This document shows, one piece after another, positions 38,651 through 42,795 of a stretch of DNA of 46,417 nt; the first letter of the stretch is position 1; the number at the start of each line of letters is the position of its first letter. A program made the position numbers and the translations under genes. A model generated the notes under the pieces. The model ran no database searches and was not told the DNA's origin. It saw nothing but the letters and a program-made list of their open reading frames with translations. This DNA comes from Chthoniobacteraceae bacterium (GTDB lineage Bacteria; Verrucomicrobiota; Verrucomicrobiia; Chthoniobacterales; Chthoniobacteraceae): NCBI GenBank assembly GCA_947476045.1, contig CANJNZ010000033.1:1-46417 (forward strand), read 5' to 3'.

Positions 38651-38715
38651 ATGGGTTTGTTGTTGGGCAATGGGTAGTCCGTATTCAGCGATTGGCAAAG
38701 GATGAACAAAGGCCG

Positions 38716-39180
38716 CTATCGCAATTCGAGTTTCGGGTGCGCGACGCTCGTCAACTCCCATTCATCCCAGGCCTTCTTCCGCCATTTCATCTCGAAAGGC
38801 TCGCTGAGTTCGTTCACGCGATCCCGCGCATAGAGCGCGAGTGGTCCGCCAAAACCTTTCATCGTCAGTTTTTCGCGCAGCACGTAGTCGCTGCCGACAG
38901 GATCGACGCCGTGAAACTCGCGCTCGATATCGAGCAAGGCGAATTGTCCGAACACTTCCCGGCAACCTTCGAGGACAAAAGTTTTGTCATGCTGCCAGCC
39001 ATCACGGTAATCATTCGCCAGCAAACGCGAGAGCGCATCGAAGTCACGCGCCTCGACCGCCTTGATGAGACGTGCTTGCGCGCGTTTCACCTGTCGTTCG
39101 GGCTGGCACCACCACCACAGCCAGAGCGTGAGAGCGAGCAGCGCTGCGCAAAACCAAATTCCGAGTCTTTTGAAATTCAT
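38716..39180 (-). CDS. Membrane-anchored NTF2/SnoaL-like protein
   Basis: A 154-residue protein with one N-terminal membrane helix (residues about 5-24, FKRLGIWFCAALLALTLWLWWW) and an NTF2/SnoaL-like body: VKRAQARLIKAVEARDFDALSRLLANDYRDGW, then an alpha-beta cone with EREFHGVDPV and a final WELTSVAHPKLEL. Such folds bind small ligands or act as scaffolds; no catalytic residues can be named. ATG 39180 overlaps the start codon of rppH on the other strand by two bases. Confidence 0.7.
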   Translation of the reverse strand: MNFKRLGIWFCAALLALTLWLWWWCQPERQVKRAQARLIKAVEARDFDALSRLLANDYRDGWQHDKTFVLEGCREVFGQFALLDIEREFHGVDPVGSDYVLREKLTMKGFGGPLALYARDRVNELSEPFEMKWRKKAWDEWELTSVAHPKLELR

Positions 39181-39631
39181 GAATACCGTTAAACTCCGGC
39201 CCAACGTCGCGGGAATCCTTCGCAACAGCGAGGGAAAAATCCTGATTTGCGAACGCATCCACGTCCGCAACGCATGGCAGTTTCCGCAGGGTGGAGTGGA
39301 TGATGGCGAGACGCATGACCAGGCGCTGGTGCGTGAGCTTTGGGAGGAAATCGGACTCGACCCGCAGGATTTCCGCATTCTCGAAAAGCGTCACGGCTAC
39401 CGCTATCTCTTCCCCGGCGGGAAAAAGAAAGGGCACCACGGAAAGGATCAAACTTACTATCTCTGCGACTTCCTTACCGAGAATTCGAAGATCAACGTGA
39501 ACACCGAGCACCCCGAGTTCCGTGGGTGGAAATGGATTTTCCCAAACGAATTCCGCCGCCAGTGGCTGCCAGCGATGAAGCTAGACGTTTATGCGCAGGT
39601 TTTTAGGGATTTTTTTGGGGTCGAAATCTAG
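39179..39631 (+). CDS. rppH: RNA pyrophosphohydrolase (Nudix)
   Basis: A 150-residue Nudix hydrolase. It removes pyrophosphate from the 5' end of mRNA, which starts decay. The Nudix box GGVDDGETHDQALVRELWEEIGL, WQFPQGG before it, and YYLCDF and FRGWKWIFPNEF after it are the RppH pattern. ATG 39179 is chosen because the first strand (RPNVAGILRN) begins a few residues later and the length fits. Its start codon shares bases with the start of the divergent NTF2-like gene, so no room is left for a normal Shine-Dalgarno site that is not coding on the other strand. Confidence 0.93.
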   Translation: MNTVKLRPNVAGILRNSEGKILICERIHVRNAWQFPQGGVDDGETHDQALVRELWEEIGLDPQDFRILEKRHGYRYLFPGGKKKGHHGKDQTYYLCDFLTENSKINVNTEHPEFRGWKWIFPNEFRRQWLPAMKLDVYAQVFRDFFGVEI

Positions 39632-39685: not shown

Positions 39686-39778
39686 ATGCTTAGTTTTGGT
39701 TCATTTCTATTTATTGTCACAGGTCTCATCGGCAGCCTTTGGTGGGCCGTGCGCGAAGAGGGCGGAAGCGCAAGCTGA
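39686..39778 (+). CDS. Possible 30-residue membrane peptide
   Basis: A short frame encodes 30 residues with one hydrophobic segment (MLSFGSFLFIVTGLIGSLWW) and then a charged end (REEGGSAS). No clear ribosome site is seen, and there is no family, so it may be chance. It sits between rppH and the receiver pseudogene and would be a small single-pass membrane protein if real. Confidence 0.3.
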   Translation: MLSFGSFLFIVTGLIGSLWWAVREEGGSAS

Positions 39779-39787
39779 TATAAAATT

Positions 39788-40480
39788 ATGGGAGATCCTG
39801 AAAACGATCCACAGCTTCGCAATTCAGCCAATGATTTGAACAATTTGTTTCAAGTCATCACTGAATCTGCTCAGGCCCTGAAGCCGATTTGCGAACAACA
39901 TCCGGACGCAGGGAAGTATTACGCTTTTCTTTGCAGTTCCATCGAACGGGCAAAAGAAATTACCAGTTTGATGGCTGCGCGTCTTGGGGGGTTTTCGGAT
40001 GGCAAGACGAACACGGTTTCAAAGCCCGAACCAGTCAAGACGAATACGGACATCAAAATTGCAAATCCGGGTGGTGAATTGGAGATGGTTCTCTTGATCG
40101 ACGACGAAGAGATGGTCTGAAGCCTTGTGAGTGAAATGCTCACCTACGCCGGATATCGAGTTGTAACCGTCTGCGAACCATTCCGCGCTTTAAAAGTTTT
40201 TGAGCAACTCAAGGATCAGATCGCGCTCGTCATTTTGGATTACACCCTGCCGATTATGGATGGCTCGGAGGTCTTCGAGGAACTGAAGAAAATAAAGCCA
40301 TCTGTCGCTGTGATGCTAAGCAGCGGCTTCACGGAGCAAGAGAAAGTGCGGGCGATGCTGGCGAAGGGACTCCGCGGGTTTCTGCCAAAACCCTACACGG
40401 AGGCACGGCTTTTATCGCAGGTCCGGACGACGCTCGATACGCTTCGCTCGGAGAAAACCGGCGAGCGGCGGGTGCTCTGA
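39788..40480 (+). pseudogene. DHp-like/receiver protein split by in-frame TGA
   Basis: One frame runs from ATG 39788 to the stop at 40480 but is cut by TGA at 40118-40120, codon 111. Part 1 (residues about 10-65, ANDLNNLFQVITESAQAL ... ERAKEITSLMAARL) looks like the DHp helix pair of hybrid kinases with an AHDFNNLL-type H-box, but Asn is in place of His. No ATPase domain follows. Part 2 is a CheY-like receiver: DD acid pair VLLIDDEEMV before the stop; phospho-Asp in VILDYTLPIMDG, Ser in MLSSGFT and Lys in FLPKPYT after it. The TGA lies where Arg (CGA) is common, so one C-to-T change explains it. The downstream part alone (GTG 40127) lacks the DD pair. Sequencing error is possible. Confidence 0.8.
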
Positions 40481-40488
40481 TCTCCGGC

Positions 40489-42714
40489 TTACTGGGCGGC
40501 TGCGCCCTGCTGGGTTTGTGCGGTAGCAGGGGCTGGTGTGTTGTTGAACTCGATCAGATCGCCGAGGATATGCAGCGTTTCAACGCGAATGGGATCCACC
40601 CTTAGGATTTCAGCCTCCACTTCTTCATCGTCATCTCCATCGGCATCCGCAGGTTTGGTTGCGTTCGGTTCCTTGTGTGCGGCTGTGGCTTTTTCGTCCT
40701 TCTTTTCCTTCTTCGGCTCGAGTTCGGGTTTGGATGCGTTGTCGAGTGTTATGGCATAAACCAATTCCTCGGCGTGTTTGATTTTAGCCCGCTCCGCATT
40801 GCGTTTTTCTTTGCGCGCCTTGTCCTCGTCGAGTTCGGTGCGGCGGGTTTGCTGATTGAGCGAGATTTTGTTTTCAGCGATGCGCTTCTTTGTGCGCTCG
40901 ATGTCCTCCTCAATCCATTTGAATTCCTGTTCAGCCGCGATACGCGCGGTGGAGCGTTGTTTGAGTTCAGTCTTGAAAAGCGACTTCTCCAGCTTGTCGT
41001 AAGACACATCTTTGATGGTGTCGTAGGGCAGCGGGCCTTTGAGCGCGCCTTCTCCGATGTCTGCCTGGTCCCAAAGCGAAGGCAGCTTCAAATCGGCAAT
41101 CACTCCCTGAAGTTGAGTGGAGCCGCCGGAGATACGGTAGAATTTTTGTATCGTGAGCTTGAGTGCGCCTGCTTCGTTGCCGTTGCCGCGTCCGCTGAGT
41201 GAAAGGGGGATGATGTTTCCGAGGTCCACCATCGTCTGCACCGTGCCTTTTCCGAATGAACTCGAATCACCGACGATGACGGCGCGATTGTAGTCTTGAA
41301 GCGCGGCCGCAAAAATCTCGCTCGCCGATGCGCTGAGTTTGTTGTCGAGAACGATCATCGGCCCTTCGTATGCGACGCTGGGGTCGCGATCCTTGAGGAT
41401 GTTTTCGCGTCCATTGCTGTCGCGGACGACCACGACTGGCCCTCGCTTGATGAAGAGCCCGGTGAGATTCACCGCCTCTTCCAGCGAGCCACCGCCATTG
41501 CGGCGCAAGTCCATCACCAGACCCTGAATATTTTCCTTTTTGAGCCGCTCCAATAGCACGGCGACGTCCTTCGTGGTGCTCTTCGCGCCGGTCGTTCCAC
41601 TGTGCTGCATGTCTGCGTAAAATGAGGGCAAAACGATCCAGCCTAGGCGCTGCGTAGTGCCATCGGGAAGTTTGTGCTCGACGATTTCCGCCTTCGCCTC
41701 CTGCTCCTTGAGCTTCACTTTCTTGCGGGTAATTTCGATGATCTTGCGTTCCGAAGGATCGGTTGCAGTCACGGGGATGATTTTCAAACGGACGATCGTG
41801 TCCTCTTTGCCACGGATCATCTCAACGACTTTATCGAGCTTCGTATCGAGCGTTTCTGCGAATTCCCCATCGCCCTGCGCCACAGCGCAGATGCGGTCGC
41901 CGACTTTCAGGCGACCGTCTTCGGCAGCGGGCCCGCCGGGAACCAGTTCGCGGATTTTTGCATAGCCATCCTCGGTCGTGAGCACCGCGCCGATGCCCTT
42001 GAGTTCGAGGCTCATCGTGATGTTAAAACTGTCGAGCTGCGAGCGGCTCATGTATTCCGAATGCGGGTCGTAGGTCTCGGAGAGCACGCTGAGGAATCCG
42101 GCGATGACTTCTTCATCCCCCTGTTCATGGAGATTGCGGAGAAACTGATCGTAGCGGCGGGTGATGACTTTGACTGGCGCGTCCACCTTGTCCTTGGAGA
42201 GCGTGCGGTCGAGCATTTCACCTTCGATACGGTCGCGCCAGATTTGGTCGGCTTCCGCCTCGTCCTTCGGCCACGGGGATTTCTGCCGGTTAAACTCCAC
42301 CGTGCGGTTGCTCTTGAAATCAAACGTGCCCTTGAGCAGCTCCTTCACTTTTTCCACTCGGCCTTCCGCACGTTGTTGATAAACGGCGAAAATTTTCAGC
42401 GCGGCATCCACATCGCCGTTGAGAATTGCGTCGTCGAGCTTCGTGGCGTAGCTGGCGTTGAAACCGTCCACGTCCTTCTGCGTGAAGAACAGGTGATTGT
42501 AGTCGAGGCGTTCGAGATAGTTTTTGAGGAACTGCTTCGACAGCGTGTCGTCCAGCTTGCGGCGGCTGTAGTGCGCTTTTTCCAAAAGCTCGCCGACATT
42601 CTGCGCGACTTTTGGGGCGATTTTTTTGAAATCCAAATCACCGGCGCTCTGTGCCGCAGGTGCAAAGGCGATGGATGCGGCGAGTGGCGCGACGAGGTAT
42701 CGAAGGACGTTCAT
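40489..42714 (-). CDS. prc: Tail-specific (C-terminal) protease Prc, S41 family
   Basis: A 741-residue periplasmic protease, close to E. coli Prc (682 aa). ATG 42714 (MNVLRYLVAPLAASIAFAPAAQSA) gives a signal peptide. Parts: N-terminal helical domain (about 25-230; SETYDPHSEYMSRSQ), PDZ domain (about 240-330; GIGAVLTTEDGYAKIRELVPGGPAA), the Ser-Lys protease core with LDNKLSASASEIFAAAL (Ser) and SSFGKGTVQTMV (Lys), and a C-terminal coiled-coil region, plus an acidic tail (ADADGDDDEEVEAE). It degrades proteins with non-polar C-termini. It is behind the FKBP gene on the same strand. Confidence 0.94.
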   Translation of the reverse strand: MNVLRYLVAPLAASIAFAPAAQSAGDLDFKKIAPKVAQNVGELLEKAHYSRRKLDDTLSKQFLKNYLERLDYNHLFFTQKDVDGFNASYATKLDDAILNGDVDAALKIFAVYQQRAEGRVEKVKELLKGTFDFKSNRTVEFNRQKSPWPKDEAEADQIWRDRIEGEMLDRTLSKDKVDAPVKVITRRYDQFLRNLHEQGDEEVIAGFLSVLSETYDPHSEYMSRSQLDSFNITMSLELKGIGAVLTTEDGYAKIRELVPGGPAAEDGRLKVGDRICAVAQGDGEFAETLDTKLDKVVEMIRGKEDTIVRLKIIPVTATDPSERKIIEITRKKVKLKEQEAKAEIVEHKLPDGTTQRLGWIVLPSFYADMQHSGTTGAKSTTKDVAVLLERLKKENIQGLVMDLRRNGGGSLEEAVNLTGLFIKRGPVVVVRDSNGRENILKDRDPSVAYEGPMIVLDNKLSASASEIFAAALQDYNRAVIVGDSSSFGKGTVQTMVDLGNIIPLSLSGRGNGNEAGALKLTIQKFYRISGGSTQLQGVIADLKLPSLWDQADIGEGALKGPLPYDTIKDVSYDKLEKSLFKTELKQRSTARIAAEQEFKWIEEDIERTKKRIAENKISLNQQTRRTELDEDKARKEKRNAERAKIKHAEELVYAITLDNASKPELEPKKEKKDEKATAAHKEPNATKPADADGDDDEEVEAEILRVDPIRVETLHILGDLIEFNNTPAPATAQTQQGAAAQ

Positions 42715-42795
42715 TGTTCGCTGGATATAAAGTGGGGCAACCGTGGCAGAGAACCGCTGTTTGGCAAGCACCCCGCCGATTTTCCTGCGCCGAGA

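Follow-up and report, generated by a model that had tools for sequence, protein, structure and literature searches.

We asked whether the interrupted reading frame at positions 39788-40480 of a 46,417-nucleotide stretch of DNA from a Chthoniobacteraceae bacterium (hereafter the window, meaning the whole stretch analysed) is the remnant of a histidine kinase or an intact kind of signalling gene that happens to be cut in this genome. A previous inspection of the letters alone (the sequence-only reading) had counted two independent losses in this frame, that of the kinase functions and that of the open receiver frame, and had concluded that a signal protein was decaying. The explanation that we favour, with a probability of roughly 60%, is that the gene belongs to a lineage-restricted family of ATPase-free "pseudo-transmitters" and that the window copy was cut by a recent nonsense mutation or by an error in the consensus sequence.

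The translated frame, which begins MGDPENDPQLRNSANDLNNLFQVI, encodes a helical hairpin containing the motif ANDLNNLFQVI, a linker and a receiver, in this order and all in the positive strand. It is a genuine coding frame, since the nearest genome has an orthologue with no interruption that shares 68% identity with it over 230 residues. The hairpin, a pseudo-DHp of residues 1-68 (39788-39991), was delimited by HisKA matches, hhalign, the family profile and the helices of the predicted model. Alignment of the family copies places its AAT codon for Asn15 (39830-39832) at the phospho-His position, and Asn19 (39842-39844), at position H+4, corresponds to the residue that HisKA kinases need for phosphatase activity (role from PMC3510030). 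A linker follows at 39992-40057; orthologues differ in its length and sequence, and pLDDT is below 50 over residues 68-86. The receiver extends from 40088 to 40423 (residues 101-212; PF00072, E=1.8e-20 when the whole frame is read through the stop, and E=2e-15 for the part behind it). The in-frame TGA at 40118-40120 is codon 111; it lies downstream of the DD pair (40100-40105) and upstream of the codon for the phospho-acceptor Asp (40238-40240), a residue that is Asp in every aligned relative. The natural stop of the frame, at 40478-40480, is likewise a TGA. Translation thus bore out what the sequence-only reading had said of the TGA, placed between the acid pair and the phospho-Asp, and, with the family alignment, of the Asn at the phospho-His position.

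In the predicted model of an intact orthologue (mean pLDDT 77.8, three sequences) a two-helix hairpin (helices 4-36 and 39-65) is followed by a linker without order and then by the receiver, which is complete. Structure searches with this model returned matches to the receiver only, with Z about 20 against solved receivers (e.g., 3crn_A, rmsd 2.3 over 129 residues), and a sequence search with the N-domain against solved structures gave no reliable match.

The ancestry of the N-terminal domain was clear from profile comparisons. PF00512 (HisKA) matched 8 of the 15 orthologue N-domains, with a best E value of 6.9e-6; the window's own copy taken alone had no PF00512 match in the Pfam search. In a profile-profile comparison (hhalign) with the DHps of four kinases encoded in the same genome, the N-domain had a probability of 94% (E=1.1e-7). 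When the N-domain profile was searched across the phylum, the matches beyond the order were exclusively DHp domains of long kinase frames, and in these matches the Asn column of the family corresponds to the His of AHDFNNLL kinases. On these alignments the homology is solid: the domain descends from true DHp domains, as the DHp pattern noticed by the sequence-only reading had indicated.

The phospho-His itself is absent from the family. In 29 copies from 26 genomes the position is occupied by Asn (24 copies), Ser (3) or Thr (2), and relatives with His in the H-box, which the sequence-only reading had envisaged as a counter-case, were not found among these copies. By comparison, HisKA domains without the phospho-His are rare and made up 0.9% in one survey (PMC12632262). 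Every one of the 15 rows in the N-domain alignment has the H+4 Asn, as do 26 of the 29 copies overall, three distant copies having Ser or Lys instead; the acid at H+1 is present in most family copies.

Of 57 related genomes searched with the N-domain profile, 26 carry the family in short frames devoid of an ATPase domain, and the 10 sampled from the genus are all among them. Full-length matches run across most of the genus and are scattered in the family and the order, and most of the sampled genomes of the same-family genera g2, g3 and g5 were unmatched. A scan of a genome collection yielded a single close relative, from an uncultured Spartobacteria MAG, which is the nearest named one. The frames are about 225-370 aa long, and in the aligned members a variable linker and no ATPase (CA) domain separates hairpin and receiver; this is also the arrangement in the window, where the linker alone stands between the two, as had been read from the sequence. 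The receiver residues DD, D, S and K are retained in nearly all relatives, with ED in place of DD in two of them, and the phospho-Asp occurs in every aligned copy, so that these domains are not pseudo-receivers. Apart from this gene, the four best receiver matches of the window's genome lie in long ORFs of 697, 720, 696 and 610 aa, each with a DHp motif nearby.

All 29 copies, from 26 genomes, have Asn, Ser or Thr in place of the phospho-His and are devoid of an ATPase domain, so both features are ancestral. The non-His H-box and the absent ATPase domain are traits of the family and not signs of decay in the window copy. This leaves the TGA as the one private lesion, and the two independent losses of the sequence-only reading do not hold, whereas the DHp(Asn)-REC family without ATPase domain that it had proposed to search for does exist. 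We found no account of such a family in the literature; it is conserved and apparently undescribed so far.

The window copy differs from its orthologues in the genus, the family and the order in that these are open through the position of the stop, in keeping with the pseudo-transmitter explanation. All 19 aligned relatives have a sense codon there, so full-frame relatives, which the sequence-only reading had proposed to look for, do exist. Its "likely Arg codon" fared worse: the nearest relative has TGC (Cys), the others V, I, L, T, A, S or R, and Arg occurs in 1 of the 19. An apparent second truncation near the same place, in genome G006, was discarded because a contig end lies there.

The part of the receiver behind the stop is as constrained as in the nearest relative. 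Between the two, pN is 0.106, the lowest within the gene, and pS is 0.671; the post-stop branch lengths are 0.111 for the window and 0.118 for the nearest relative, with four private changes each. Ahead of the stop the branch lengths are 0.532 and 0.209 and the private changes nine and four, a contrast in counts too small to be given much weight; the longer branch may reflect relaxation of the N-domain in the window's lineage. As no decay is visible behind the TGA, the stop must be recent or an error, and the pN/pS ratio and branch lengths led us to reject a long-standing pseudogene for the post-stop part.

The locus and its surroundings show other irregularities. Between 39638 and 40750 the DNA identity to the nearest relative falls sharply to 53-79%, most of the flanks being at about 85-93%. 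The dS of the gene relative to the nearest relative is about 2.3, near saturation, with 0.08 to 0.71 for the neighbours; in two other genome pairs the gene has 0.44 versus 0.33-0.40 for its neighbours, and 0.87 versus 0.45-0.52. Since the excess of dS appears here and the gene is closer to its neighbours in the other two pairs, the data suggest an exchange of alleles by recombination in the lineage of the window or of its nearest relative. The GC3 of the pre-stop part (0.518), below that of the neighbours compared, would fit an import into the window's lineage.

Two further broken genes were seen. In the orthologue of G020 (locus L084, G020:C29:4300-5600, minus strand) a TAG stands where the DHp of all other copies has Gln, a frameshift follows shortly after, and the receiver frame is open. 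In the window's own genome a frameshift within the DHp breaks a hybrid kinase in two (locus L075, G000:C28:35000-40000, minus strand, about 2845-2950). Both assemblies are fragmented, so either case may be an error or true decay. Because the G020 copy is also broken, inside the DHp, the presence of the gene is patchy, and it is probably dispensable.

Whether the TGA exists in the organism is a choice between explanations that are equally possible on these data, and each falls short of even odds by itself. A real, recent nonsense mutation in a dispensable gene, with decay just starting in the window's lineage, comes close to an even bet: the presence of the family is patchy, with most sampled g2, g3 and g5 genomes lacking an N-domain match, the G020 copy was broken independently by its TAG and frameshift, and the window N-domain scores lowest among the genus orthologues. 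The absence of relaxation behind the stop speaks against such decay, as does the receiver frame that is still open in G020. The same absence of relaxation favours an error, made in sequencing or in the consensus of this fragmented assembly, with the gene intact in the organism, an explanation that we regard as a serious contender at somewhat under even odds. It agrees with a TGA that is private to one assembly and one substitution away from the TGC of the sister, with the hybrid-kinase gene split inside its DHp on G000:C28 of the same assembly, and with the MAG origin of the nearest named relative; the compared neighbours, among them the Nudix, S41 and FKBP genes, all keep their frames, so that local quality looks good, which weakens it. 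The fallback of the sequence-only reading, a dimer role for the first part together with an erroneous stop, thus came closer to the evidence than its main proposal, except that a recent real nonsense mutation would serve equally well.

Two further explanations would keep the gene at work in spite of the stop, and both are improbable. Readthrough by a near-cognate tRNA or by selenocysteine insertion would supply low levels of full protein; the sister codon TGC (Cys), the conserved sequence behind the stop and a report that bacterial in-frame stops under purifying selection (dN/dS <1) are widespread (PMC7918605) are in its favour. A merely recent stop accounts for the same data, though, and Cys is not conserved at this column. 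In the window's genome (96.8% complete) SelA had no match, the best match to the SelB model reached 155.5 bits against a cut-off of 242, and the best match to tRNA-Sec 45.7 bits against a cut-off of 47, while control genomes exceeded the cut-offs; selenocysteine is therefore unlikely. A SECIS search behind the UGA matched nothing, and the controls were equally silent. An alternative genetic code was also rejected, because the gene's own stop and that of another gene in the window are TGA. Least probable of all is a split gene that now works as two proteins, one from the DHp part and the other a receiver part initiated at GTG 40127 or ATG 40136. Start codons directly behind the TGA and the conserved post-stop part would suit it, but the second product lacks strand 1 and the DD pair and should thus neither fold nor be phosphorylated, and no ribosome-binding site was clear by eye.

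The gene lies between a Nudix hydrolase gene (39179-39631, positive strand; PF00293, E=2.3e-23), a conserved upstream neighbour in 14 of 20 loci, and a convergent tail-specific protease gene of the S41 type downstream (40489-42771, negative strand; PF17804, PF03572 and PF11818), which also occurs in four of the nearest loci. Farther upstream, at 38708-39174, about 400 bases of the window have no counterpart in the nearest relative (locus L036); they make up most of a DUF4440/SnoaL-like gene in the minus strand (weak Pfam match), of which the relative has only the start.

A short ORF in the positive strand (39686-39778) ends 9 nt ahead of the DHp(Asn)-REC start and encodes a 30-aa micropeptide, MLSFGSFLFIVTGLIGSLWWAVREEGGSAS, with one hydrophobic stretch that looks by inspection like a transmembrane helix. 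Such ORFs, 27-32 aa long and marked by a hydrophobic stretch plus a WWA motif, lie directly ahead of the gene in 15 of 20 loci. The pooled pN of 0.32 is less than half the pS of 0.74, so the micropeptide is probably translated. It had no Pfam family above the cut-off; a resemblance to FixS (E=0.15, in one member only, below the cut-off) was not relied on. The micropeptide is linked to the DHp protein by position only. A two-part device, with the micropeptide as tether or sensor at the membrane and an Asn-type DHp dimer that takes phosphate out of the hybrid-kinase network or serves as its sink, is a speculative proposal that we consider rather unlikely.

According to the pseudo-transmitter explanation, the ancestor of the family would have had Asn substituted for the phospho-His of a DHp (some members have Ser or Thr), and the protein is made up of a DHp-derived hairpin, a flexible linker and a hybrid-kinase-type receiver that is complete and phosphorylatable. 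Intact copies would dimerise via the hairpin and dock on the receivers or hybrid kinases of the cell. They might then strip phosphate from receivers, with the H+4 Asn retained and the His and ATPase domain gone; alternatively, their own receiver might take up phosphate and act as a sink. In the window's genome the effect of the TGA would be a fragment consisting of DHp and linker, along with a remnant of the receiver that should be unable to fold. The likeliest role of intact copies would be that of a dimeric docking or phosphatase module bearing a phosphorylatable receiver. In HisKA kinases the T/N at H+4 is required for the phosphatase reaction only, the acid at H+1 for the kinase reaction only, and the His is helpful for the phosphatase without being essential (PMC3510030). 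The H+1 acid, a kinase-only residue that most copies still keep, would argue against a pure phosphatase, and so may the isolated EnvZ DHp, which had no phosphatase activity in one study (PMC8971529), contradicting the original report. The cut copy of the window is ordinary in itself. The interest lies in the family: orthologues that never have the phospho-His, are devoid of an ATPase domain and retain the phosphatase residue and a phosphorylatable-looking receiver would offer a natural test of whether a DHp can act in the absence of a kinase, be it as a docking dimer or as a phosphatase.

The isolated EnvZ DHp fragment (PMC8971529) is likewise a DHp without ATPase domain and a potential phosphatase, but it was engineered from a true kinase and its activity is disputed in that study. 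HisKA-type hybrid histidine kinases (DHp-ATPase-receiver) share with the family the homologous DHp hairpin and a receiver of the hybrid type; unlike them, the family is without phospho-His, ATPase domain and sensor domain, and its proteins have a length of about 230 aa. DivL and other pseudo-histidine kinases (PMC9430884, PMC12632262) also have a DHp-type module without kinase function and a presumed interaction role, and the analogy would extend to the family, which additionally is without the ATPase domain and has a phosphorylatable receiver fused to it. Osp and FixT, single-domain response-regulator inhibitors of kinases (PMC9430884), resemble it as receivers without an output domain that may exert control by docking; these two lack the two acid residues and are unphosphorylated, whereas the family described here keeps both acids and adds a DHp module.
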